From a virus: a DNA stretch of 22,006 nucleotides. Position numbers and translations under genes: made by a program. Below, one piece after another: positions 11,001 to 22,006 of this stretch (positions within the stretch are counted from its first letter, which is position 1; each line of letters starts with the position of its first letter). The DNA is taken from IMG/VR virus record IMGVR_UViG_3300007276_000350, positions 1 through 22,006 of that record; one strand, 5' to 3'. The notes below the pieces were generated by a model, which saw only the letters and a list, made by a program, of their open reading frames with translations, did not search any database and was not told the DNA's origin.

Positions 11001-12367
11001 GGCGTTAATGCCGTAATCAGTCCAGTGCCATCAACGACGGCTGTACGAATAGTATTATTATATGCTACATCGGTGCTAGATATGAACAATATAGTGTCGC
11101 CGTCTACCACTGTTTTAGCAACGATCTGTTTCCAATATTCACTATTCATGTAGAAAGTAGGGTTCTTGGCATCGTTGTGGGTTTGCGCACATTCCCAGTA
11201 TGTAAGTTCACCGTCTGAATCAACGTATACTTTATCACCCTTGTCGAACCCAGTCAATGACCATATAGTTGTTGCTAGATGCGAAGCAAGATTGAAATTG
11301 GTAGCGCCTATAATATCCGTACCAGGAGCAACGATGTTCTCAAATGCGTGTGACACATTCATTAAGTGTTCTGTACCGAAGTCAAACTTCTCACAATCAG
11401 CAAAGAATTCAATAATAGGTCTGACCGCTCGTGCTGTTTCAATTGCGTAGTCGCTGGAATCTAAATCATTATAATCACAGGCAGATATAACTACGCTGTC
11501 TTTTACCCATAGATTAGTTCTCGACCATGCGCTCTGCTCGGGAGCAAATCTAGGCTCTACTACATAATCTCTGATAGGATCGCTGTAGTTGTAGATTGTT
11601 TTATTGATCCATGTTTTTGTGCCAGTGGCATCATATTGTTCCGTGAGCTTGATGCCACTTGGTTGACCAACGTTGTCTACAATGTAGGTTATATCTTTGG
11701 CATAGTTTACGCCAGATACATTATCACCAATGAACTTAACACGCATACCATTTTCTAATGTTAGTGTCTTGCCGTTAGCTAAAGTAGGAGTAGTGTATGT
11801 TGAGCCAAGCAGAAGTCCATCAATATCATCAATCAGGAGCGCCTCTGCTAGAGGTCCTGATCCATAATCAAGTTCGCATACAGGCACAGTATTGAGTGCC
11901 CAAAAGTATTTGTGATAGTTGATAAACATATCGTAGTTGATCGGCAGTCTAAGAGTATAGCCATTTTCATTTAAGATATTGTTGTGGTTGTTTACATCAA
12001 CACCGTTGAATTCCAATGCTGATATAAAATCATCATAAGAAAGCACATCCGTAATCTCGTTGTTGTCATTTTTATTAACCAACGAAGGAGTAAACTGATA
12101 GTTGTCCGCAAATCTATTGCTACTGTCGTATATGTCCGACGCTTTTCTATAGCCGTTGTTTGAACCAACAAGCGAATTTATTGCCTGCAAACTGCCGCTG
12201 GATAGTAATTGTTCTAGCGTACTGTTCAGAAACTTTTTGTTTATATGAGTTCTGAAAATGTCAGGCAATAGTCCCGTAACATTTGTCGTACCCAATCTTT
12301 CCTTACTTTCGCCTGGTCGTGTGATTAGTGGGGCATCAGTAGGATTCGCTTGATAGTTCTGGCTCAT
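2069..12367 (-). CDS. Giant baseplate wedge protein, gp7/VrlC-position, 3432 aa
   Basis: This single uninterrupted frame starts at ATG 12367, overlapping the gp6 stop by 1 nt (TAATG), with GGAG 7 nt upstream. The N-terminus (LLPDIFRTHINKKFLNSTLE, then a DIY motif, NYQ, and a Y-x-x-F-I-N-Y-x-K-Y-F-W segment near residue 150) is the hallmark of the very large structural protein found directly after gp6 in marine T4-like phages, usually annotated as VrlC-like or baseplate wedge initiator. T4 gp7 occupies the same place but has only 1032 residues. Visible modules: CBM5/12-like segments near residues 369-414, 2038-2083 and 3066-3107; a Gly-rich beta-repeat pair near 1413-1489; a low-complexity, Thr/Ser/Ala/Ile-rich block at about 2083-2560 with flagellin-hook-IN-like repeats. 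It probably forms the outer body of the wedge and links hub-side wedge proteins to fibres. The family call is from recognition of the N-terminus plus synteny; equivalence to T4 gp7 is inference. Confidence 0.85.
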   Translation of the reverse strand: MSQNYQANPTDAPLITRPGESKERLGTTNVTGLLPDIFRTHINKKFLNSTLEQLLSSGSLQAINSLVGSNNGYRKASDIYDSSNRFADNYQFTPSLVNKNDNNEITDVLSYDDFISALEFNGVDVNNHNNILNENGYTLRLPINYDMFINYHKYFWALNTVPVCELDYGSGPLAEALLIDDIDGLLLGSTYTTPTLANGKTLTLENGMRVKFIGDNVSGVNYAKDITYIVDNVGQPSGIKLTEQYDATGTKTWINKTIYNYSDPIRDYVVEPRFAPEQSAWSRTNLWVKDSVVISACDYNDLDSSDYAIETARAVRPIIEFFADCEKFDFGTEHLMNVSHAFENIVAPGTDIIGATNFNLASHLATTIWSLTGFDKGDKVYVDSDGELTYWECAQTHNDAKNPTFYMNSEYWKQIVAKTVVDGDTILFISSTDVAYNNTIRTAVVDGTGLITALTPLHDSGTLTPGDKIVVTVGYNEVFGDEYPNDIWSGSEWYWDNTTWVYGQQKDYRSEGMLFQAYDIDLNKLDDAAVYPNSSFAGDPIFDYSKSTSSIYDFALGFKPKYAEYGNNPGFEFTLGSGSIRYAYNKVNTNVNLSNSSVSNEFEIAGFYYFKNINTGKFTNNWTEVRGGQPVRRHYQNIFGTPSDSMIVDLGTNDVHNYDSFRVLSKGSELEFHTHSNQNSVTTFNRVNGTNPVLFMARNKTYTFKTVFDSDDLQFKDVSGNNIPGLTRSPAIDNEFTISLDGTVTDALIKYTLPGVDTGWISLSDIKEYNVDVTIRNDSGDTVLPETAYVISDNHLTITHDFAADDVVDVTWHTDGKLTSSAQGSFLPADTHILNPQNELVTTVEYSDLQHHIKSQMTSIPGFSDSFFGTNNYTALPMLNQFGGTIRQQAFSTELLTQTLSNTDSNPFSSLRFVSQRYNRFKSQFTQKVKQLHNTTDTSIPVYELVDRALREMNLGKNRNSDFSQSDMAFYNGYESVDVNWYDGDSNVFSLPQTINTFDDTVNHVQLWLKDVDGNGVARWRALIKDIDYTLTNYNVTINTSVTFDGDSRAYAHIRWYPQNSSSFIPPSAAKMGLVRPTKLSQLSNFYIDAGYITGQDDFVAPTVGTYTDALQLHDGSIHVRMGTELYNRNSSEFNIVDAAIWELDTRIENNLSDALNTVVDYKTIMPTAHRSTSYSWDDMSNAMRDDFNRWKTRNSVTVLNSASYYDAGDKFTWNYSSVGPGIGGWKGVYTYYFNTDRPHTHPWEMFGYNTQPTWWIVYYDWTDVNKKAALITALKTGHYNNPADTPKYSIDYAYTNYDWDTNTLVDITNVLLDPVAAAVVTAPVSVEASKDFVFGDLGPIESSWRNSSEYKINLFSTLMKLQPLWTINTYFRSLTRSIISNPDIDTVQHYFKDTKNLGNNKNANFTYLPFADNILSTITVTNGGTYATAPVLTVFSNFGDDATVTAHVNNGTMAAVSIDNPGGNFTGRPTIVTSEGNATFNVTTIAGATRYFGGMGNAIVEFAKYNNTPVDTLVERFNNMGYSPIVKASGFVNNDQNFILESSHDKGRVYYPADSHTTILYTSQPKDEKFFSSVKITKLAQGFSVSGMDNVGQTFSYYAPITTSSKIAVDINNKLYYNYSKYDTTATQLAYSSVLDDTQAVYNFILGYEKYLLAQGWKTAAWAAEAQKFVEWNATAAAGDYVFAKPDTSRLEITEPTLGYYDSLSTKYDGAYNLVDADGKLISNDKVLISRNIETSTGINTVMERKDNDTIIHGIRFYTVELEHVIVFDNESLFNDVVYQPAMGNLRDRITWRGTRTKDWNGKLYAPGFVVTGDRIVNNFDTVARELDQYYGPGNTLSNQQMLDVARFNVGYNRPAWADSLTLDDDTVWNFVKGTYKYSGTENALNALLRTTALYDTVADVTLHEDWAIRTADYGDTRSNETLEFVLTRDLVKTNPQPIRFTDGIRNDVLTDFVVDVDSNSNLLVTGTAGNNFQTRAPKQYNNTTSTTFADLTLVENDFSDAGLPLLTEADYRVLNRDDFVQFPTEVKDAYDFSGEWQSIGQWDNKTSYKFGDKVIYQGSVFQMVDSSGATGITRPNNPIDVVGTAVLPIISKAGGTFIIGESSGTATTINIVNTTTTTNYNPIAISGTEVNPVLAQNTTLVIASDDNELVTVTFANISDVIVYDSPTSTGDDVVNPVVSTPGGTLIVDGTTITFNDIDNNNINAESALLDVINGSLTVARINAIEALRLVYPSGTWGAFLASYFATSVAGLDITFLLTERGTPAYEAEIDALITNDVNIINSLQGTVYSPTLVIAGTETVAPQDSTAAQTDMEAGTYIDDVSIWLAANLTTVFSSSTVVASQSTNRVYNLAATIQKITAAAIPNIVASNSSNQLKITKTNVDTSTAATLIIGEGTLNTTLGFPIVGETVVSTGIAVPTAGIIDLTSIVSQINTAVIPGISAQASLNNTLTISSNSTQVVIDASSTALTALGIVSGTILATSNVSSTSSTNDIDDIVSLINAEGLSGILAANSNNRLKITSTASTLYIGPGTINSVVGLQSNTYTASQTVVSNTFQAIRSENGDEIQVFLELENDPAVFSIWVADDSSLDGLGNFGYDVHQSMDFGMYVSRACAGITEADNAEITVSLASDVTNNKGNSLHNLTVGDYVLITGSNTTPKIDGIHKVVEIDANNKRRFFIDEFIEKEGNVGNIYPLRSVRFDTIDSLLSEYNSFTTVDGLSIPKYNFAGFRQNNSLRPIYAFVNSDDLGRPAVYRWTGRFGMTDGNTYGDWVKVRVTYDQARNDLIENVKIFDAENQTYINNIEIFDPFKGIIPGFAEREIDYKSTNDIAIYNFNNASGSIVTDNAWKDSHVDERWWDLRSAVYLNYEQGNIDYKRSHWGRLFDGASIDIYEWTRSPSLPEEWETLVTNGAVVDGKTASGEAYSYELNNETIYQWTESVYYNPDKNRTETTYYFWVKNKTTTANNRNYNVSQLRELLTNPSSFDISWAAAAGADELILSNVYNFTSDNSVVQVNQKYESETLTNSEYVLLSEKENKKLIPEYLHIKMRDSLVGYNRYSERYTYTSYDAVTTYSVSDVVLSGNDYYISLRDVNTGNTPNATEEFWRRIYDYELPAETQATDIDVLSPILLPNIRLHPYNRFGHLTRPAQSLIRNKSEARQNFIEAFNSITADIVMVSEYPNLEDYIGQTFVEGEVTYNPRDFWNYVDYTKRTYNTSGDMDYMFNTDTVVNYRVDSLTDIREENISGTYQNGDLVYVSSIIHSDGLTRPAIYRRLDNDWVLEWKKNGTIEFSEELWNVNKYGHGFDVTGFDSVGFDSDPSNILYHLIEQVRNKMFLTKPELYNKLWFSWLHQAVTENTTSDFAFKTTYTSMDISYPLNTTAKLYQPQNTDVLEGFFNDIKPFHTKLRKINENPTHDETSKLEISETYSIGIVTP
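4690..6120 (-). repeat. Low-complexity repeat block with three flagellin-hook-IN-like units inside the giant wedge protein
   Basis: Residues about 2083-2560 differ in composition from the rest of the protein: poor in aromatic residues and rich in Thr, Ser, Ile, Val and Ala. Three units near residues 2348-2410, 2421-2480 and 2491-2544 share the order 'I-x-x-I-N-x-A-x-I-x-G-I-x-A-x-x-x-x-N-x-L-x-I-T', a short strand with I-G-x-G or V-I-D-A, and 'L-G-I/L'. This resembles the flagellin hook IN motif (Pfam PF07196). Preceding segments repeat 'G-G-T-x-I-I/V' near residues 2095 and 2184. The block has the look of an inserted tandem beta-repeat arm. Confidence 0.65.
7895..8125 (-). repeat. Gly-rich beta-repeat pair in the giant wedge protein
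   Basis: Residues about 1413-1489 contain two copies of a unit 'I-x-V-x-N-x-G-x-Y/F-x-x-x-P-x-x-x-x ... G-x-x-A-x-x-x-x-x'. The first copy begins TITVTNGGTYATAPVLTV and the second AVSIDNPGGNFTGRPTIV. The same paired unit occurs in gp6 at about 13815-14045. Confidence 0.7.
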
Positions 12368-15300
12368 TAATTAACTCCGGAGTTTGATGTTATAGTAGTT
12401 AGATTAGCGTTGTTACTTGATTCCACAATGACATTAGCAGATGTTAGAACTGGCAGGAATAGTTCGTCACTTTGTGAATTAATCTCATAAAGCGTTGAAC
12501 CAAATCTGTTGTCAATTGGAACAATATTAATCTGACTTATTTGCCCTATCAAGTTGTTATGAACGTATGACGCAAGTTCAGTAAAATAAAATGTCTCGCC
12601 AAAGTCCCAGTTGTCAATACTAAAATATTCATTTATTAGTTGTACTACTGTTTGTTTGATTTCTGTATCACTCAATGTACTATTTACTGTTTTTGTAATC
12701 TTGAAGTTTGCCTGTAACTCAGATGACGCCAAATCTCCAAATAGTATTTTATACTTGACAGGTCTATAAATTATCTGGTCACTTATTGTTTTCTTGGTGG
12801 ACAGACTAGTAAACAATTTACTAAGTCCATTAACTGTCGGAGCAGCTGGCTGAGTAAATGATCTACCATCATATGCTGCCCATGTTCTGAACTCAGTGTC
12901 GTAACTTCTAAGAAGAACATATGTATCAATGATGTTAGTTCTGGATGGATCAATTACCTGATTTAAGTCAGCAATTCTATTATATCTTGTGTGTATTGCT
13001 TCGCGTCCGCCAGTATTAGTGCCGGTGGCGGCTCTTACAGTGTAATCATATCCATTTTCCGTGATCGTGCCAAGATTAATCGTCTGGTCTCTGACAACCT
13101 GCTGAAACGCATCTGGCGTATCTGGATAGTTATCGTTATCTGGATCAGCCAACGTAACTTTTACTTTATGATTATCAGTATAGCCGTCACTATATTTGTA
13201 GTATCCGCTAACATTAAACTTGTATTTCTTGCCCAATGGTGTATAATCACTAGAGGAGACATTATTAATATCAAGTACTTCTAGATTATCTCTTCTAGGC
13301 TTGGATGTCGCACTACTAAATGTTTCTTCGAAGTTGAGATTGTTAAATCTAACTGTTGTGTCACTACCAAAAACAAACCTCGTTTTTCTAACAAGTATTT
13401 CCCAATCGGTAGAACTATAATCAAATCTGATTATCCAACTCTGATCCAATGATCCAGCTGTAATATCACCTTCGAATTGTCTGCTCCAACTACTAACGTC
13501 TGTAGACGCAATACTATTGCCAGGAAGATCGCCTGATGCCACCAATGCCCATCCTCTAGTAGGAATATCGTAACGTAAACCAAAGCTATTTCGATTATCA
13601 ATCGCATTTTTTATTTCAGCTTTAACTGCTGTTGTAGTGTCCATGCTGTATGTTGGGACAATTCGTTTAATTCTTGCGCCAGTTGGAACAACACCGCCTA
13701 GTGCGACTGAACCTCGACTGTCAAGTGTAATGCCTGTTGGGATTCCAGAAGCACTATCTTCACCAAGTCCATTGTTGCCAAGACTGACTATTTTTACCCA
13801 TTTTGTGTCCGCGCTGGTTACATATACTTTAGCAACGCCGCCGCTTCCGCCGCCGCCCGTGATAGTAATGTTTGTTGCTGAGTTGTATTCCGAGCCTGCT
13901 GCTGTGACAGATATACTTGATATTGAATCACCAGTAAGAGTTGCCTCTGCTGTTGCTCCTGTGCCGATGCCATCAATAGATATCGTAGGAGCACTTGTGT
14001 ATCCGCTTCCCTGATTGACAAGCTCAATACGAGAAATATAACCTTCAACAAATGGTGATGTAATGAATTCAACTAATCCATTCTCGGATAGTTTGTCTAA
14101 TGGAGCAGCGGCGGCTGTGCCGAAATTCTGAACTACGCCATTCAGAGTGATATACCCTGTCGAGCTACTATTACCAGAAGTGATTTGGTTCCAACGATAC
14201 ACATCGTCGATACTGCCATTTACATTATAAAAATTAATCAATCCAGTTGTGTTACTGTAATGCTGATATGCGTCATATAAACCTGGTACTGCGCCGTCCA
14301 AACTGATATTTGTTCCGTAAAACTGGCGATGAAAGTAAAAGTTGGTAAGTTCAGGATCATTCAATAATGGAGCAACATGTCGATTAAATATTTGCTCAGA
14401 TGTTAATGACGAAGGTAATCCGATTAAACTTCTTACTGTTGCGTCATCTTTATAAAGATAGCCATCATCCATATACATACTTGCGTCACTGTAAGTAGCA
14501 GTAGGATCATAAAAATCTCTAAAGCGACTGTGCCCACTATGTACTCGGTTAATACTTTTAATCTTGCTAACATTTTCACTAACTGTTAGTGGGAATAAGC
14601 TATAATCATCAGCAGTAACCATGCGGTCCTGTGCGCTATAGAATCTACCAGCGTTATCCTTGATGCTCTTTAGTGATTCTCTAATACTCGCATTGCTTAC
14701 AGTTTCTTTTAGACCTAGATTAATTGTAGCTGTATATTCATTGCCATCAATTCCTGTGTATCTAAAGTTCTTTGTAATGCTTGACATATTATTTGGATTA
14801 ATAACATAGTTAAGATTGGCGCCTGTTCTGTACCAAACACGAATTATACCACGAGGAATGTTTGCGAAACTTCCGTCACCAAATACAATACTAATCTGGT
14901 CATCTTCTCTACTGCTCACAGTAAAGATATCTCGTTGGTTGTTTGAAACACTATTATAGATTGCGTTGGTTCCGTATTGTCTGTCAACAAGTGTCCAGTT
15001 TGTAGAGATGGTGCCGTCTAATCCGATTGTTTGTACCCAGATATTACCATTAGCAATATTAGTACCGGTAACGTCTAGTACCAAGTTGGCTAAGCCAGTG
15101 TCAACATTAAAATCTTGAAAGTTTAACGTGCCCTGCTTAAAGCCCATAAAGAATCCAGTATTTGGACTTGTGAAACCACTATTATCATTCTTGTACAGAA
15201 TGTCAATACTTTTATTTGGTTCAGGCGTGCGCTCTTCTATCACATTTACATTTTGATTGTAATATACACTGTATAGTTCAAATCCCAGACTTTGTCCACT

Positions 15301-15912
15301 GATAGTTGAGTTAAATGACTCTACTACCGAGTTATTTGCTGTACTAGTCTTGTATACTTCGTTCACAACACCAGATTGATTAAACTTAGCAAAAGGTGTG
15401 CCGAATTGGTTACTAGTAGTGAAAATACTATTCATAATAGTCAAGAAGTCTTGATACGTGTCAGGGTTAGTCACATCTTCAAAGAAAATATCTTTGTTGG
15501 CAAGACTTGATCCTTCGGCATCATATAATCTTTCACTTGTCTTGATACTATTGATTTTCAAATAGCCATCAGCGACAACGTTTCTTGTTGGTTCATATCC
15601 CAAGAATTCAGCAATACGCAATGCGCTTTCACGGCGCTCGGCAGTACTCAGATAGTTTTCACGGCTAGCAAGGTCAGCTCGGAAAGCCAAGTTGTGACCT
15701 AAGAATGCCATAAGTTCAATTAAACTTACAAATTCACTACTGCTGATCCAGTCGTTAAAATCTTCCGGGTAGTTAGCTCTTACATAATCCACCATGGCAG
15801 ACCTGATTGTATCAAAGTCATACGCCTGAAAATTAGCTTGGCTAAAACTCTCGTATACTACGCTGAAGTCTTCGGCAGCAAATAAACTGCTCTGTCTTGC
15901 ACCTTGTGCCAT
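12367..15912 (-). CDS. 6: Baseplate wedge protein gp6, enlarged (1181 aa)
   Basis: The first 120 residues match the gp6 / baseplate J-like family: a start rich in F-x-A-Y-D-F-D-T-I-R, then DWISSSEFVSLIELMAFLGH, F-R-A-D-L-A-S-R-E-N-Y-L and A-L-R-I-A-E-F-L-G-Y, the region that dimerises to close the inner baseplate ring. A later segment (VTADDYSLFPLTVSENVSKI) fits the conserved central part of gp6. The protein is nearly twice the 660 residues of T4 gp6. Part of the excess is a Gly-rich beta-repeat insertion near residues 622-700. The ATG at 15912 overlaps the gp25 stop by 1 nt, and the stop overlaps the next start by 1 nt, so gp25, gp6 and the giant protein are probably translationally coupled in that order, as expected for subunits of one wedge. 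Confidence 0.92.
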   Translation of the reverse strand: MAQGARQSSLFAAEDFSVVYESFSQANFQAYDFDTIRSAMVDYVRANYPEDFNDWISSSEFVSLIELMAFLGHNLAFRADLASRENYLSTAERRESALRIAEFLGYEPTRNVVADGYLKINSIKTSERLYDAEGSSLANKDIFFEDVTNPDTYQDFLTIMNSIFTTSNQFGTPFAKFNQSGVVNEVYKTSTANNSVVESFNSTISGQSLGFELYSVYYNQNVNVIEERTPEPNKSIDILYKNDNSGFTSPNTGFFMGFKQGTLNFQDFNVDTGLANLVLDVTGTNIANGNIWVQTIGLDGTISTNWTLVDRQYGTNAIYNSVSNNQRDIFTVSSREDDQISIVFGDGSFANIPRGIIRVWYRTGANLNYVINPNNMSSITKNFRYTGIDGNEYTATINLGLKETVSNASIRESLKSIKDNAGRFYSAQDRMVTADDYSLFPLTVSENVSKIKSINRVHSGHSRFRDFYDPTATYSDASMYMDDGYLYKDDATVRSLIGLPSSLTSEQIFNRHVAPLLNDPELTNFYFHRQFYGTNISLDGAVPGLYDAYQHYSNTTGLINFYNVNGSIDDVYRWNQITSGNSSSTGYITLNGVVQNFGTAAAAPLDKLSENGLVEFITSPFVEGYISRIELVNQGSGYTSAPTISIDGIGTGATAEATLTGDSISSISVTAAGSEYNSATNITITGGGGSGGVAKVYVTSADTKWVKIVSLGNNGLGEDSASGIPTGITLDSRGSVALGGVVPTGARIKRIVPTYSMDTTTAVKAEIKNAIDNRNSFGLRYDIPTRGWALVASGDLPGNSIASTDVSSWSRQFEGDITAGSLDQSWIIRFDYSSTDWEILVRKTRFVFGSDTTVRFNNLNFEETFSSATSKPRRDNLEVLDINNVSSSDYTPLGKKYKFNVSGYYKYSDGYTDNHKVKVTLADPDNDNYPDTPDAFQQVVRDQTINLGTITENGYDYTVRAATGTNTGGREAIHTRYNRIADLNQVIDPSRTNIIDTYVLLRSYDTEFRTWAAYDGRSFTQPAAPTVNGLSKLFTSLSTKKTISDQIIYRPVKYKILFGDLASSELQANFKITKTVNSTLSDTEIKQTVVQLINEYFSIDNWDFGETFYFTELASYVHNNLIGQISQINIVPIDNRFGSTLYEINSQSDELFLPVLTSANVIVESSNNANLTTITSNSGVN
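12375..12378 (-). promoter_or_regulatory. Ribosome binding site GGAG inside the end of gp6
   Basis: GGAG lies 7 nt upstream of the ATG at 12367 and within the last codons of gp6. It supports this start for the 3432-aa protein and coupling between the two genes. Confidence 0.65.
13815..14045 (-). repeat. Gly-rich beta-repeat pair inserted in gp6
   Basis: Residues about 622-700 hold two units: SRIELVNQGSGYTSAPTISI with a G-T-G-A-x-A tail, and SSISVTAAGSEYNSATNITI with a GGGGSGG run. The GC-rich CCG/GCC stretch at about 13838-13860 encodes the glycine run. It is homologous in form to the pair in the giant wedge protein. Confidence 0.75.
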
Positions 15913-16277
15913 TAGATTGTCTCACTCTCAAAATTTAAGTATAATTGTTCCACTGATCCAGTCGATACATAAACTATATTAGCTCTTACCTCTATAGAAT
16001 GTTCACGCTCGCTGATAATAAAAACTTCGTTAATACTCCAGCGTGGATCTAATCCGATGATGCGCTCAACGTCATCCTTCGCCAGTGAACGAGTATAGTC
16101 GTCCATTGGGTCAAATAACAGATCCCATATGATGCTTCCAAAAGCTGGATTCATCACACGCTCACCTTTCTTTGTATAAAAATGATTCAACAGGTCACGT
16201 TTAGCAAGTTCTGAATCAACTAGAACCGTGCTGCCTGATCTTTTATTTACACTACTAAAACCATAATACTTTGCCAT
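15912..16277 (-). CDS. 25: Baseplate wedge protein gp25 (GPW/gp25 family)
   Basis: At 121 aa it is close to T4 gp25 (132 aa). The signature runs from about residue 31: N-H-F-Y-T-K-K-G-E-R-V-M-N-P-A-F-G-S, then I-W-D-L-L-F-D-P, typical of the GPW/gp25 family (Pfam PF04965). The C-terminal half keeps the I-x-x-D-P-R-W segment and the alternating beta strands. In T4, gp25 joins gp6 and gp53 in the wedge and helps bind the first sheath ring; the same is expected here, and gp6 follows directly with a 1-nt overlap. No Shine-Dalgarno is visible; instead a perfect late-promoter octamer ends 6 nt before the ATG. Confidence 0.95.
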   Translation of the reverse strand: MAKYYGFSSVNKRSGSTVLVDSELAKRDLLNHFYTKKGERVMNPAFGSIIWDLLFDPMDDYTRSLAKDDVERIIGLDPRWSINEVFIISEREHSIEVRANIVYVSTGSVEQLYLNFESETI

Positions 16278-16309: not shown

Positions 16310-17254
16310 TTATATTCTAATAACAAACTTCAATTCAGAGTTCGCTAGTGTAATTTTCTCAGGATGTAGCAATGTTAGTGTGTTGCCACTAACTGTAAAG
16401 TCGAATAAATGCTGAATTCTGGTTCCATTTACATACACCTCTAGTTTCTCGACCGGATACATACTTGGTTCCTTTTGAAGTGTATACACAGTTGTTGTTC
16501 CGTCAAATGTGACTAACTCATTTGTTAGTGTCTCAGCATATCGATTAATAATATCTCTCTTAATGCCTTCTGGTGTATATGGCAAGAATTTCTGTGTTTC
16601 GGCATAGTATGAAAATCTAGCACGCTGTAATTCCTCAGTTGTGAATGTTCCGAACTTGAACAGTTCGTTTTTATCACGTAACTTGAATATGCCCATTTGG
16701 CGCAACCAGCTTCTGGATTTTGTTTTGGTATAGACCGCAAGTCTTAGTATTTTGGCGCACTCAATCGCTTGTTCTTTGAATTCGTAGTTACGAATAATCA
16801 TACTAGCAACAGTATCCCAGTCGCTGTCGTGTATTGCTGATTTGAAATCGTAAACTCCCTCAATCGCAACACTCTCGGTAAGAGAACCGGTAAACCAATA
16901 ATACAAATACAATCCATCATAAACGCATTGCGGCAACTGTGTTATTGAATTTATTCCTAGTGAAGATATCAATTTCTTGAATTTTGCCTGTGTTGTGTTG
17001 AATTTAACTATCCATACATCAAATGACTCTTGTTCAGTCATCCCTCTATCGGTATCTGTGAATACTCCATACGCAGTTTTATTATATCCTGTGTATCTTT
17101 TAAAATTCAATGCGATATCAGCGACCTCACTTGATGTCCACATAATACTCAAATCTGTTGGTACAGTTTTGGTCGCATCTGCCACAGTAAAGTCTTCCCA
17201 CACGGTGTTGTATCGCTGTGCTACTGTTGTTAATTGTTTTTTAAGTTTTGCCAT
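16310..17254 (-). CDS. Baseplate-cluster protein with possible lysozyme-like segment, 314 aa
   Basis: I do not recognise a named family with confidence. Residues about 61-155 resemble the core of phage GH24 lysozymes in order and spacing: G-M-T-E-Q-E-S near 71-77 (like the 'iTeeqA' helix), then SITQLPQCVYDGLYLYYWFTG near 103-123 (like 'LTQxQFDALVSFxFNxG'), then D-F-K-S-A-I-H-D-S-D-W near 136-146. The N-terminal catalytic glutamate and the D/T residues of a T4-type active site are not apparent, so this may be an inactive relic or chance. Residues about 248-314 are a separate beta domain (F-D-G-T-T-T-V-Y-T-L, VEKLEVYVNGTRI, DFTVSGNTLTL), a module common in phage tail proteins. AAAGG 8 nt upstream fixes the ATG at 17254. 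It lies between the spike and gp25, so a hub- or wedge-associated role is likely. Confidence 0.75.
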   Translation of the reverse strand: MAKLKKQLTTVAQRYNTVWEDFTVADATKTVPTDLSIMWTSSEVADIALNFKRYTGYNKTAYGVFTDTDRGMTEQESFDVWIVKFNTTQAKFKKLISSLGINSITQLPQCVYDGLYLYYWFTGSLTESVAIEGVYDFKSAIHDSDWDTVASMIIRNYEFKEQAIECAKILRLAVYTKTKSRSWLRQMGIFKLRDKNELFKFGTFTTEELQRARFSYYAETQKFLPYTPEGIKRDIINRYAETLTNELVTFDGTTTVYTLQKEPSMYPVEKLEVYVNGTRIQHLFDFTVSGNTLTLLHPEKITLANSELKFVIRI

Positions 17255-17262
17255 TTTTATTA

Positions 17263-17267
17263 CCTTT
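17263..17267 (-). promoter_or_regulatory. Ribosome binding site AAAGG
   Basis: AAAGG lies 8 nt upstream of the ATG at 17254 and overlaps the end of the spike gene, where the TAA stop is at 17266-17268. It supports the start of the 314-aa protein. Confidence 0.7.
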
Positions 17268-18555
17268 ACGACACATCATAATCATCTTGGGTAGGTGTCA
17301 GTGTACTTGGTGCTTGAGCGGCAATAGTTGAATCATTGGTAATATGTCCGCCATATGGCTCATGCTCAGGAACTCTTCCGTTAATACTTTCTTTGACGAC
17401 TCTATTAACAGGCATCGGCTCAGATGTTGGCTTGTCTGCCACAGCGGCACGAGATCCAGGACTGTTCAGTTCTATGTTTCCAGATGTAGTCACGTTCAAG
17501 TTTCCTCGTGCGCTTATATGTCCGTCTACCTCAGTGTGTAATTTTAATTCTTTTTGACTGAACAAATCTATTCCACCAGCACTTGATTCAACCTTGACAC
17601 CATCTGCGCCAGTTGCTTTGATATTGACGGTGCTTGCCTCGATATTAAAGCTGTCATCCGCATAAAAATTAATACTATCTTCGGCTCGATAGCTTATACT
17701 GCCTTCAGCAAATACATCCACGTTGCCTTCCGCGTCCATTTGCATCCAGCTTTTGCCGCTCTGACTAATGATATAAACGATTCCAGCACTGTCATTTAAT
17801 AATAGTTGAGCTCCGCCGGCGCTGCGCAGCCTGACCAGATTATTCTTGCCTGCTTCTCTGGATTGGTCCGGTACGTGATTGATATCCTCAGCGTATTCTA
17901 CTGTGCCGTCATCCATAATAAAACTATGACCAGCGGGTGAGTTGAAGCCAGATACATTACTTGGCGATTCTCTTCTAGCACCACTACTGCCTACGCCGCG
18001 GATTGGATCTAATGGGATACCTTGCTGAGCGATTGCGTCAGCACTAGGATGTCTGACTTTGGCATTGTTTTTCTGTGCCTCTGATCCGCTACTATCTAAC
18101 GTAGGAGCAATGATGTTTTCTTCGCCCTTGACCGGATTTGCGGATAGACCAGGGATACTAGAATTTCTGCCAGCAGGAGTTAATGCTCCTATTAGGAAGC
18201 CTTCCTGTTGGTTAGCAGCAAAGGCGACCAAAACTTCTGTACCAGGAGCAGGAGGAGGAAAACTTGCTCCATAAGGAGAACTATAGTTTGACCCATTTAT
18301 AGTGCCGCCTAATGGATTTATTGTTCTTATTTTATTATAACGGTGCCGATCTTCCTGTGTGTCTTGGCTATCTAAGCGATGCTGACCAATGATTTCAACC
18401 CATATATTATTGTTGTAATCTGGATCAGCGATGTCAACCACTCTCGCAAGATGTACGCCTTGCATATTATTAGTGCCAGGAGACTCCGCCGAGGGAATGC
18501 CCACAGATGGAGTATTAAGTCCTCGGTGCTGTCTATCTGAATCTCTATTGCTCAT
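17266..18555 (-). CDS. 5: gp5-like central tail spike, OB fold plus beta-helix, no lysozyme domain
   Basis: Residues about 30-135 form a gp5/VgrG-type OB fold: GVHLARVVDIADPDYNNNIW start, I-G-Q-H-R-L, then P-P-A-P-G-T-E-V-L-V-A-F and F-L-I-G-A-L. After a linker, residues about 218-370 form the repeat-rich needle: V-R-L-R-S-A-G-G-A-Q-L-L-L-N-D, I-V-Y-I, then regular short repeats (G-N-V-D-V-F-A-E-G-S-I-S-Y, D-S-I-N-F-Y, S-F-N-I-E-A) expected for a trimeric triple-stranded beta-helix. T4 gp5 (575 aa) has a lysozyme between these parts; at 429 aa this one has no room for it, and no lysozyme motif is seen. The spike pierces the outer membrane during sheath contraction. The start ATG overlaps the upstream stop by 4 nt (ATGA), which suggests coupling with the 675-aa gene. 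Confidence 0.88.
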   Translation of the reverse strand: MSNRDSDRQHRGLNTPSVGIPSAESPGTNNMQGVHLARVVDIADPDYNNNIWVEIIGQHRLDSQDTQEDRHRYNKIRTINPLGGTINGSNYSSPYGASFPPPAPGTEVLVAFAANQQEGFLIGALTPAGRNSSIPGLSANPVKGEENIIAPTLDSSGSEAQKNNAKVRHPSADAIAQQGIPLDPIRGVGSSGARRESPSNVSGFNSPAGHSFIMDDGTVEYAEDINHVPDQSREAGKNNLVRLRSAGGAQLLLNDSAGIVYIISQSGKSWMQMDAEGNVDVFAEGSISYRAEDSINFYADDSFNIEASTVNIKATGADGVKVESSAGGIDLFSQKELKLHTEVDGHISARGNLNVTTSGNIELNSPGSRAAVADKPTSEPMPVNRVVKESINGRVPEHEPYGGHITNDSTIAAQAPSTLTPTQDDYDVS

Positions 18556-20579
18556 CGTGGTCCACTCGCGTCCGAAGCTATAGAAGCTAGACTGATTTGT
18601 CTAAGGTCTAGTGCTTCTACTTGGTTAGCAGCCTGTGAATCGGTAATCTGTCCCAAGGCTAACTGTTCATAAATTAACCCACTGTTTGTTGGTAAATTTC
18701 GATTAGCATGTAATGTCATTATAAATTGTCCATTCTGATATTGAGATGTTACTTTGATGACGTTATATAACCCAGCCAGATTCAAATCTTCGCTCGTAGT
18801 TGCTGTATAATCGCCATCTGCGGAATAGCTAGGGAAATTCACATTAAGAAAGAATAACGGACCTCCGTTATCGAATGTTCCCGCTTTAGCTAGCCAGTAA
18901 GGATCACCCCTAACAGATATATTTATAGATAGCATATCGCCGCTACCGTTTAGATTTAATTTAAGAGCACCCAGTCTCGCCTGAAATTGACTCGCCTGGT
19001 TAGAGCCACTGTTCTCTGGGCCATTGCTGTTTAACGAATAATTGTTAAAAGTTACATGACTAGTAGGATCTAGTCCTAGGCCTATAACATCCTGTTGTGT
19101 TATGTATTTTGGCTCGCCACTCGCAGAATCACGTGGACCAACACCATTTAAATTTGATGAATTACCCTGAGCAAGGTCATTTATACTGTTTACTCGGGTT
19201 TCTAGTGCTGTTTTGTTTGACACTAATGTGCGTATCTGATTGCCTAGGTTTATAGCCTGATCAGCACTGTCTGGAATTTTTAATCTTAGGTCCTGTATAT
19301 TCTGAGTCAGAGTGGATACTTGTTGAGCCAGATTTTCCAGAATGTTATCTCCGGGCCCACCACTCTCTGTTAATGTACTCGCCGGGTCTTGTGTAATCCC
19401 ACTATGAAGGGGCTGAAGCACATAATAGGCATTGTTGAACTGTATACTCAAATCAAGAACTTCTGTGTTTTGTCCTGTTAGATAATAGTCAAAACGCTTC
19501 TTTAATAATCCCAGGGTAAGAGCTTGTGCTAGTCGTTTTTTCTGTAAATCTTTACTATCGATTAACTCCTTGTGACTATTCTTATCAATAATTGCCTGAG
19601 TTGTCGCATATGGTATCATGTTGAAGGTTAATTCTCTCTGATAACGATTTGCCAGACTGTCGAATTTGACAAATTTAACATTAACATCGAAACTTATCCA
19701 ATTTATTATATTAGCCAACTCCTTAGCATCTACCACAATGGACTTGCCCGCAAATTTACCCACCGTAGTCGGAATCTTTCTGAATTGTTCTGTCGCATAT
19801 GATGCTTCTGCCAACATGTTTGTGATAGCGGTACCGGCAGGAAAAACAAATTTCAGACTACCAGAGCCAGTGATACTTACTTGTCTTCCACTGCCATCGG
19901 CGTCATTAATTACAGTAGAAAACTGCCAATCTTTCCACGCGGTTGGTACTGAAAATTTAAATAACGTCGGCAGGATGGAGGATGGGTCAAGGTCTGCTCT
20001 GACCTTTGCTGCTTTGTTGATTTCTGTTTGTAGTTTCGTGGCAAATTCTCCGAGATTGCTTGCCTCTACCGATGTCTCCACAGGAAAGTTAAAATCTACT
20101 CGGTCATATACACCCTCTTTTGTTTCTATCATGGTCATGGTGTACTGACTAGTGTTATCAGCAAAACTATGCTGAATACCATAACACTTTGTTAGCCACT
20201 CCTGTGTATGTATCTCAGTTGGTTTAGGATCATCATCGTCTGACCATCCTATAAGTTTTAGTTCAAGAATATACAATGCGTGAATGTGATTAGCAATACT
20301 CAATTGTGATGCGATATAGGCAATTCTACTAAACAGTGATAGCCCATTAGGCTCAATCAATTGTACTTGGAAATAAGATCCAGCATTGCTTCTATTTTCC
20401 GCATTGAATGCCAGATGGAAGTCGTGCTGTACCGAGTTTATTCCTACTTCATTATCTACGCCAGATTCTGCCAATACATATTTTGTTCCGCCGCCGTCAT
20501 TCAGCGGATCAACTATCATTATTTTCCATTTGTATGTATAATTATTATACTTGTTAAGCAGATTTTCTTCATACGACAA
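18552..20579 (-). CDS. Probable baseplate hub protein, 675 aa
   Basis: It lies directly upstream of the spike gene, where the hub protein that holds the spike is expected, and shares an ATGA overlap with it. The N-terminal 190 residues are beta-rich (Y-K-W-K-I-M-I-V-D-P-L, then SYFQVQLIEPNGLSLFSRI, H-A-L-Y-I-L-E-L-K-L-I-G-W). 'Epitope-x-x-P-x-G-x-S-L' followed by a long helix and 'Y-x-L-E-L-x-x-x-G' is typical of contractile-tail hub and ring proteins (gp27-like role; inference). Residues about 405-470 are predicted coiled coil by heptad look (ENLAQQVSTLTQNIQDLRLK and following). The start codon appears to be TTG at 20579: no in-frame ATG is closer than about residue 21, and AAAGG lies 11 nt upstream. 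A clear sequence match to T4 gp27 is not visible. Confidence 0.7.
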   Translation of the reverse strand: MSYEENLLNKYNNYTYKWKIMIVDPLNDGGGTKYVLAESGVDNEVGINSVQHDFHLAFNAENRSNAGSYFQVQLIEPNGLSLFSRIAYIASQLSIANHIHALYILELKLIGWSDDDDPKPTEIHTQEWLTKCYGIQHSFADNTSQYTMTMIETKEGVYDRVDFNFPVETSVEASNLGEFATKLQTEINKAAKVRADLDPSSILPTLFKFSVPTAWKDWQFSTVINDADGSGRQVSITGSGSLKFVFPAGTAITNMLAEASYATEQFRKIPTTVGKFAGKSIVVDAKELANIINWISFDVNVKFVKFDSLANRYQRELTFNMIPYATTQAIIDKNSHKELIDSKDLQKKRLAQALTLGLLKKRFDYYLTGQNTEVLDLSIQFNNAYYVLQPLHSGITQDPASTLTESGGPGDNILENLAQQVSTLTQNIQDLRLKIPDSADQAINLGNQIRTLVSNKTALETRVNSINDLAQGNSSNLNGVGPRDSASGEPKYITQQDVIGLGLDPTSHVTFNNYSLNSNGPENSGSNQASQFQARLGALKLNLNGSGDMLSINISVRGDPYWLAKAGTFDNGGPLFFLNVNFPSYSADGDYTATTSEDLNLAGLYNVIKVTSQYQNGQFIMTLHANRNLPTNSGLIYEQLALGQITDSQAANQVEALDLRQISLASIASDASGPR
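18920..18927 (-). promoter_or_regulatory. Internal late-promoter-like octamer TATAAATA
   Basis: A perfect minus-strand octamer lies inside the hub gene, about 365 nt before the spike start. It may give extra transcription of the spike and downstream genes or be a chance result of the Ile-Asn codons it encodes (L-S-I-N-I). Confidence 0.25.
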
Positions 20580-20881: not shown

Positions 20882-21453
20882 TAGATGAAGCCTTTGCTGT
20901 ATAACTCGCCACTTGCGAATTTATCAATATCAAACTGTTTTTGCTTAGCAGGATTAATATGTACCATCAGAGTAACAGTGAGCGTTAGCATGGCAGGCAG
21001 ACTTTGGCCCTCATGAGTAATAAGATCAACGCTGTTCTCAAATGTCGTGCCGAAGTCTGCTACTAGTACAGGAACGTTATTAAATATTTTATCTCCCATG
21101 CCAGAGAATCTACATACCGGCGGTGGTGTTCCGGGCGCAGAACTTTCTCCGTAGCGCATCTTGGTGACATTACGAAAAAACTGTATAGCCGCTAATGTAT
21201 ATTCATGCTCTGCCTGTGTTGTTGTAGTAAACTGTCCCGATACACTAATACTAGGACTCGGAGTATTACTGTAAGCGTGTGTCGTATAATTGGTGTGAAC
21301 CATGTCATAGCCACTATAGCTTACCGATTGGCTGTATGAAATCATCGGAGTATACGGAAATATCAAGCCGTTTGTTGGACGGAGTGAATCCGGAATATAA
21401 CTGCGAGGAGCAACAAGGCGTGCTCTGTTATCAGTGCTAGGTACATTAACCAT
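20881..21453 (-). CDS. 48: gp48-like baseplate tail-tube cap protein, 190 aa
   Basis: The sequence has the tube-cap pattern: L-I-F-P-Y-T-P-M-I-S-Y-S near residue 31, F-T-T-T-T-Q-A-E-H-E-Y-T-L-A-A-I-Q-F-F-R with T-K-M-R-Y-G near 75-105, then P-G-T-P-P-P-V-C-R-F-S-G-M-G and N-V-P-V-L-V-A-D-F, and LPAMLTLTVTLMVHI near the end. T4 gp48 shows the same order (TPRSTEDLMAIINIYQYFNY, FSYG, LPSTFTLEI) at 364 aa. gp48 and gp54 form the rings on which the tail tube polymerises; a gp54-like role cannot be excluded, and a single protein may do both here. The ATG at 21453 overlaps the upstream gene by 8 nt. Confidence 0.82.
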   Translation of the reverse strand: MVNVPSTDNRARLVAPRSYIPDSLRPTNGLIFPYTPMISYSQSVSYSGYDMVHTNYTTHAYSNTPSPSISVSGQFTTTTQAEHEYTLAAIQFFRNVTKMRYGESSAPGTPPPVCRFSGMGDKIFNNVPVLVADFGTTFENSVDLITHEGQSLPAMLTLTVTLMVHINPAKQKQFDIDKFASGELYSKGFI

Positions 21454-22006
21454 TTATTTTATCCAATACAAATTTATAGACTTCTTCATTAAAGTTGCCA
21501 AAGAAATCTGTAAATACTTCACGCTTTTTGGCGTCATCAATATCCATACGCATCGCATTTCTAAATGTAGTAGCGCTGCGGCCGTCGTCCTTAACAGGTA
21601 CAGGATAAATGTAACCAGCGTCATCACTAGTGATTAATGGCTCATTCTCCTGATACATTTTTAGATAGCCACCAGTTTTCAATCGTCCAGCATCTTTTTC
21701 GCTGAATACCAATAGTATCGCGGTGTTGTCTGGATTCTTGCCTGTCATTCTGACATCTGGTTTATATGGCTGAGTGTTCAAAATCTTATCAGCCGGTATG
21801 CCAAACATATCAGTCATAATCTTTTTCTTCTCGGCGAAGTCAAATGGATCCTTCTCAGGGCTGGCAGTTTTGCTAACTGTGGTGACGATAAATACGTTAT
21901 CACTACCAAACTTGTCAACAAGATCCATATATACTTGATGATGACCACTGTGCATAGGCTGAAAACGCCCGCCATATGCAACCATAATATCGTCTGCCAC
22001 TGCCTC
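21446..22006 (-). CDS. HxGH nucleotidyltransferase (NMN adenylyltransferase/cytidylyltransferase-like), possibly 5'-truncated
   Basis: It catalyses transfer of a nucleotidyl group from an NTP, perhaps to NMN in NAD salvage; the substrate is unknown. From GTG at 22000 the protein would be 184 aa, with G-G-R-F-Q-P-M-H-S-G-H-H at residues 10-21; H-S-G-H (17-20) is the ATP-binding HxGH motif. The C-terminal counterpart of the ISTTxxR motif is R-S-A-T-T-F-R-N-A-M-R at about 141-151. The middle keeps SPEKDPFDFAEKKKIM and V-F-S-E-K-D, typical of the phage group of these enzymes. The frame is open to the edge, and no good ribosome binding site precedes GTG 22000 or ATG 21985, so the visible part may be the end of a longer, multidomain protein. 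Finding it next to baseplate genes is unexpected for a metabolic enzyme. Confidence 0.8.
   Translation of the reverse strand, partial: EAVADDIMVAYGGRFQPMHSGHHQVYMDLVDKFGSDNVFIVTTVSKTASPEKDPFDFAEKKKIMTDMFGIPADKILNTQPYKPDVRMTGKNPDNTAILLVFSEKDAGRLKTGGYLKMYQENEPLITSDDAGYIYPVPVKDDGRSATTFRNAMRMDIDDAKKREVFTDFFGNFNEEVYKFVLDKING
21471..21478 (-). promoter_or_regulatory. Late-promoter-like octamer TATAAATT before the gp48-like gene
   Basis: It matches TATAAATA at 7 of 8 positions and lies 17 nt before the ATG at 21453, inside the 3' end of the nucleotidyltransferase gene. The spacing suits a late promoter, but it is also coding sequence (Y-K-F). Confidence 0.35.

Follow-up and report, generated by a model that had tools for sequence, protein, structure and literature searches.

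A degenerate lysozyme-like domain in a conserved phage baseplate gene beside a spike without lysozyme

The stretch analysed here (the window) is a 22,006-base virus record, in which a block of baseplate genes is encoded on the minus strand in the order t190, gp53, hub, spike, X, gp25, gp6 and a gp7-like gene (Table 1). Searches with tblastn matched the gp6 and spike products to jumbo phages of the RaK2/121Q/PA5oct/Atu_ph07 type, at below 60% identity. The same operon is present in a 52.9-kb record (L002/G007), where X differs from that of the window at one residue, F in the window and P in the longer record, directly after AYGV (by eye).

Table 1. Baseplate genes of the window and features mapped within gene X (residue numbers refer to X)
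Feature	Positions	Strand	Basis
gp53-like baseplate wedge protein, 95 aa	20594..20881	-	phrog_7145, E 7.5e-19
Hub-like structural protein, 675 aa, TTG start	18552..20579	-	phrog_11190
gp5-like spike, 429 aa, without lysozyme domain	17266..18555	-	phrog_13211, DUF2345, alignment with 121Q spike
Gene X, 314 aa; degenerate GH24 domain followed by a helical middle part and, at the C-terminus, a beta domain of attachment type	16310..17254	-	ORF
GH24 (T4/P22-type) lysozyme-like domain, residues ~39-175	16730..17140	-	hhalign, shuffle and family controls, AF2
Triad-equivalent positions N50 (T4L E11, by helix end), R53 (D20), K59 (T26)	17078..17107	-	residue counts, 32 sequences
Invariant G-[MILV]-T-E-Q, residues 71-75	17030..17044	-	invariant alignment columns, hhalign
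Beta domain at the C-terminus, residues ~242-314, of the kind found at tailspike/fibre N-termini	16313..16531	-	Foldseek, phrog_2710
gp25-like baseplate wedge protein	15912..16277	-	PF04965 E 4.9e-9, phrog_261/43
gp6-like baseplate wedge protein	12367..15912	-	phrog_10646, E 8.8e-272

Several other genes were recorded in passing. Residues ~600-713 of gp6 match other virion structural families (phrog_701 and phrog_19630) and appear to be an inserted domain. A gene starting MADDIMVAYGGRFQPMHSGHHQVY at the head of the baseplate operon (21446-22000) looks nucleotidyltransferase-like by eye only, and a 304-aa protein at 493-1407 has a weak match to Peptidase_G2 (IMC autoproteolytic; E 2.8e-4). A run of genes in L229 (12029-19537) and L230 (530-8014), from record G007 with the window's operon, opens with Cys-rich stretches, among them FCMLPWIHMH and FCPLLFQHL; judged by eye only, these genes are possibly radical-SAM/SPASM-like.

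The gp5-like spike had been predicted to combine an OB fold with a beta-helix and to leave no room for a lysozyme domain, and the analysis bears this out. Residues 30-319 match phrog_13211 ('baseplate hub subunit and tail lysozyme') and no further, residues 269-362 give a weak match to DUF2345, a beta-helix family, and both folds are likewise supported by alignment to PF04717-bearing homologues. Pfam returned no PF00959 match in the 429-aa protein. The 121Q spike is 887 aa long and carries a GH24 domain at residues 765-882 (Pfam); in the alignment, the window spike stops before this domain, which falls wholly past its end. The PA5oct spike (477 aa) has no PF00959 match either, so that a lysozyme-free spike is not peculiar to the window's lineage. 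T4 gp5 shares the OB fold and beta-helix with the window spike, and its lysozyme is of the family to which the domain of X is related. However, T4 gp5 carries its lysozyme internally, whereas the spike of the window is free of lysozyme and the related domain, catalytically degenerate, is encoded by a gene of its own.

The motif order of this neighbouring gene had been likened to that of a GH24 lysozyme over positions 16790-17074 (residues ~61-155). Profile alignment confirms that the likeness is real, but its extent is larger than claimed, at about 16730-17140 (~39-175). The profile of X, made from 31-32 X sequences, aligns collinearly with GH24 lysozymes over residues 55-170, or 39-175 at its widest, depending on the template. 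This comparison gave hhalign probabilities of 77-93%: 77% for full-length X (score 40.7), 82% with a second comparison, 85-89% against a broader GH24 template, and 91-93% for residues 30-180 alone (E 4e-7 to 1.2e-6, score 46.2). The broad GH24 alignment behind the 85-89% and 91-93% values, and behind the 24-family comparison described below, contained P2 K, which is not GH24-like; with P2 K removed and two hub GH24s added, the probability was 71-79, still far above the controls. Against a lambdoid-type enzyme alignment containing P2 K, it was 9.

Since the E-values of pairwise hhalign refer to a database of one, the controls outweigh them. Column shuffles of full-length X reached at most 23.8 in 300 trials, against the real score of 40.7, and the reversed profile scored 17.9; shuffles of the domain alone reached at most 22.2 in 150, against 46.2. 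X obtained 85-88% where 23 other ORF families of the same contigs obtained 1.5% or less. Masking residues 68-78, which hold the TEQ motif, lowered the score to 29-32 with the alignment retained, and each half of the domain alone kept the right register, the second more weakly (22.8 against a null maximum of 20.6). The C-terminal part of X gave 0.8% or less against GH24. The degenerate GH24 core foreseen beside the lysozyme-less spike is well supported by these results. In addition, an HMM built from GH24 enzymes only, run over 1,877 ORFs of the X contigs, placed X-family members at all of ranks 1-68 (best E 0.006), with the first non-X ORF at E 1.1 and the best reversed sequence at E 0.45. Single-sequence Pfam searches found PF00959 over the cut-off in neither X nor its 31 relatives, and comparison of X with the PF18013-like hub domain (Phage_lysozyme2) gave a probability of 0.1 by hhalign.

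The invariant G-[MILV]-T-E-Q opens the long helix of X and corresponds to the GITExxA turn of GH24, while the catalytic residues are not conserved. No Glu-Asp-Thr triad is conserved in X under any alignment reading of the 32 sequences, which extends the earlier remark that no catalytic glutamate is visible to the equivalent sites of all three residues. Position 50, equivalent to E11 of T4 lysozyme, is N in 25 sequences, S in five, G in one and D in one; position 53 (D20) is R in 19, S in four and D, T and K in two each, among others; and position 59 (T26) is G in 16, Q and N in four each, K and T in three each and L in two. An alternative site for the glutamate, suggested by the P22 alignment, is position 42 (D16, E12, S2, A1, N1), which is Ser in the window. 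As Asp or Glu stands there in 28 of the 32, a residual acid function may persist in the family despite the Ser of the window. E74 and D113 are invariant. The GH24 endolysins T4 e and P22 gp19, with which residues ~39-175 of X are collinear at 85-93% probability, act in lysis and have an intact E-D-T triad, in contrast to X, which belongs to a baseplate operon and has no conserved triad.

An AF2 model of X made with 31 sequences had a mean pLDDT of 75 and an overall pTM of 0.58, with pLDDT by ten-residue block of about 70-92 over residues 31-170; with five X sequences the pLDDT was 45 and the model was not usable. The predicted helices span 42-49, then, after a hairpin, 74-98, 109-122, 138-142, 146-153 and 160-174, an order that matches helices A, C, E, G, H and J of T4 lysozyme. 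The AF2 helix order agrees with a lysozyme, but no lysozyme is among the 50 Foldseek matches listed per library for the full-length model, and the fold search with this model gave no independent confirmation of a lysozyme fold. The matches listed fall mostly on the C-terminal beta domain and are tailspikes and fibres (BFVD included), the top one being TSP4 of CBA120 (E 1.7e-3, prob 1.00). Furthermore, 11 of the 32 X members match phrog_2710, a tail fiber protein family, over residues ~240-299. The segment at ~240-314 thus resembles TSP4 of CBA120, T7-fibre-like N-terminal attachment domains and phrog_2710; unlike tailspikes and fibres, X ends with the attachment domain, and no receptor-binding or enzymatic part follows it. 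A conserved helical segment (~180-240) joins it to the lysozyme-like domain.

Single-sequence searches with X gave no Pfam match and none of use in PHROGs or PDB sequences, and no relative was found among 50,697 phage records. Successive scans of viral contigs yielded 9, then 64, then 209 loci with X relatives, the 209 confirmed by tblastn in one scan and 80 of them retained; at least 60 viral contigs carry the gene. In family alignments (A3/A4), X shares 39-49% identity with its relatives. In the X loci checked, the order t190-gp53-hub-spike-X-gp25-gp6 is constant wherever the neighbours are present. Close pairs have a dN of 0.011-0.051 against a dS of 0.09-0.80 over the whole gene, and dN/dS among close relatives is about 0.05-0.16, similar for the lysozyme-like domain alone. 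With a ratio of about 0.1, X is under purifying selection, as befits a working protein that is not decaying. Genes near the corresponding slot in PA5oct, Atu_ph07 and SCTP-2 were tested as relatives and rejected; a NAGidase match (PF07555, E 0.019, residues 5-45) was also discarded, being found in one of the 32 members and outside the lysozyme-like domain. One X operon (L257) lies on a contig of 108 kb that had been assigned to a gammaproteobacterial MAG (MED685); the contig is probably of phage origin and the binning is a weak hint of the host.

The position occupied by X has a counterpart in RaK2-like jumbo phages, where CBB_239, 121Q gp586 and BF gp238 stand in the same succession of spike, gene, gp25 and gp6. 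The gene found between spike and gp25 in 121Q and BF is a stand-alone GH24 of 162 aa that appears intact, and its GH24 relationship, like that of X, shows in profile comparison. The gp586 product matches PF00959 with an E-value of 5e-9, and by eye both genes keep Glu, Asp and Thr/Ser. A second GH24 domain is found on the spikes of 121Q (Pfam) and BF (alignment). The same trio is described for CBB, with CBB_238 and CBB_240 confirmed as structural and CBB_239, the slot gene, not detected as such (PMC5259590). The slot GH24s of these phages match PF00959 and keep Glu/Asp/Thr but are without linker and C-terminal attachment domain, whereas X has both of these and no triad.

Of 32 distinct hubs that are complete in X loci, ten have a PF18013-like N-terminal domain, two a GH24 domain and 20 neither. 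The two GH24 hubs (L253:7927-10566 on the minus strand, with PF00959 at E 3.9e-19, and L254:3003-5636 on the plus strand) carry an apparently intact domain that keeps Glu, Asp and Thr/Ser by eye, in the place where others have PF18013 or nothing. In hubs such as L016:3253-6516 and L004:1238-3913, the N-terminal ~190 aa match the PF18013 tail lysozyme in circularly permuted order, with profile positions 72-138 before 2-65. In another (L031:3656-6646), the N-terminus has a unit of about 18 aa (ASPLAAGQAGANRHRSVI-type) repeated directly three times in place of a lysozyme. Alignment shows that the 675-aa hub of the window is without the ~190-aa N-terminal lysozyme of some relatives; like those of L004 and L008, it also lacks the ~170-aa C-terminal extension of most. 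SLT, M23 and GH19 gave nothing over the cut-off in 19 X-carrying records, with one weak GH19 stretch in one record, and PF00959 gave nothing over the cut-off outside the GH24 hubs in the long X-carrying records, which are fragments. Within 53 kb, no peptidoglycan-cutting enzyme was found for the window's virus; as the long records are fragments, such an enzyme may lie elsewhere in the genome.

Two readings had been offered, that the enzyme domain had passed into a gene of its own and taken on a structural role, and that peptidoglycan is cut elsewhere. They are not exclusive, and each is right in part. The separate, apparently intact GH24 that 121Q and BF carry at this site makes an origin of X from a separate gene plausible, and X may well have a structural role; a move out of the spike, by contrast, is unsupported, because 121Q and BF keep a GH24 on the spike too. 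Cutting elsewhere holds for at least 12 of 32 distinct relatives, which have a lysozyme at the hub N-terminus; for the window's own virus, with no such enzyme found in the 53 kb available, it may hold too.

The most probable interpretation, and one held with reasonable confidence, is that in X a catalytically dead GH24 lysozyme has become the core of a baseplate protein and is kept as a structural part. GH24 relatedness, the lack of a conserved triad, purifying selection, the constant gene order and the hub lysozymes of relatives are computed results, from which inactivity, the structural role and the direction of evolution are inferred. Residues ~39-175 would descend from a T4/P22-type GH24 enzyme whose helical C-lobe and GITEQ turn at the head of the long helix persist, while the active-site hairpin has shortened and the catalytic residues Glu, Asp and Thr are gone. 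The helical linker would tie this domain to the tailspike/fibre-type attachment beta domain, and X would fill the region between hub/spike and wedge, serving in assembly or as a connector, and may still touch glycan without cutting it. Ancestrally, an active GH24 would have been encoded on its own between spike and gp25, the arrangement seen in 121Q, BF and CBB; in the marine lineage it may have lost catalysis and been retained for structure, while peptidoglycan cutting may have passed to other proteins, in some relatives to the hub N-terminus. Points against this interpretation are that PF00959 is reached by none of the single X sequences, that the Foldseek matches listed include no lysozyme, that most members have an acid at position 42 and that the slot product CBB_239 was not detected as structural.

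A resemblance arising by chance or convergence among helical proteins, with X an unrelated baseplate protein, is very improbable: the lack of single-sequence database matches and of a lysozyme among the Foldseek matches listed would fit it, but the shuffled, reversed, family and motif-masked controls all fall short of the real score, both halves align in register and a GH24 gene occupies the same slot in relatives. Slightly less remote, though still improbable, is an active muramidase with a rearranged site, in which catalysis would rely, for example, on the acid at position 42 or on one of the invariant residues E74 and D113. Its appeal lies in the acid at position 42 in 28 of 32 members, the invariance of the other two residues and the fact that 20 of the 32 hub-complete loci, like the long contigs, show no other lysozyme. 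Against this, position 42 is Ser in the window and Ser, Ala or Asn in four of the 32, neither D20 nor T26 has a constant equivalent, E74 and D113 occupy helix positions that are non-catalytic in known GH24 enzymes, and some relatives have a separate active-type GH24 in the hub.

The rival with the most in its favour, although unlikely, is that X binds glycan without cutting, its lysozyme cleft having turned into a clamp on peptidoglycan by which the tail tip is kept at the cell wall during penetration. A clamp would be consistent with a GH24 ancestor that lost its triad, with the strong purifying selection acting on the domain and with the position of X beside the spike. However, no conserved aromatic/polar set of cleft residues mapped to a binding site, the cleft-lining hairpin seems shortened, and the C-terminal domain and conserved linker favour assembly.

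A tail-associated lysozyme is usually regarded as essential in T4-like baseplates, and the reuse of enzymes as structural parts is an already known type of event. No report of a catalytically inactive baseplate lysozyme in phages was found in the open-licence literature, which is weak evidence of absence. Beyond the reading of X itself as a non-catalytic baseplate protein, it is conceivable, if somewhat doubtful, that a whole uncultured marine jumbo lineage has turned the baseplate lysozyme into an obligatory non-catalytic structural subunit with a fused attachment domain, much as alpha-lactalbumin is a non-catalytic relative of lysozyme, and that peptidoglycan cutting has become an optional, swappable module of the hub. 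If so, the hub would bear GH24, PF18013 in circularly permuted form or no such module, and penetration in many members may depend on an enzyme not yet recognised or proceed with no lysozyme in the baseplate. The X family, so far without database annotation or a relative in the searched phage records, now gets a name. Across a large uncultured phage group, a lysozyme homologue is conserved without catalytic residues while enzyme domains come and go on the hub, and the structural and enzymatic contributions of the baseplate lysozyme are thereby separated, so that both can be tested.
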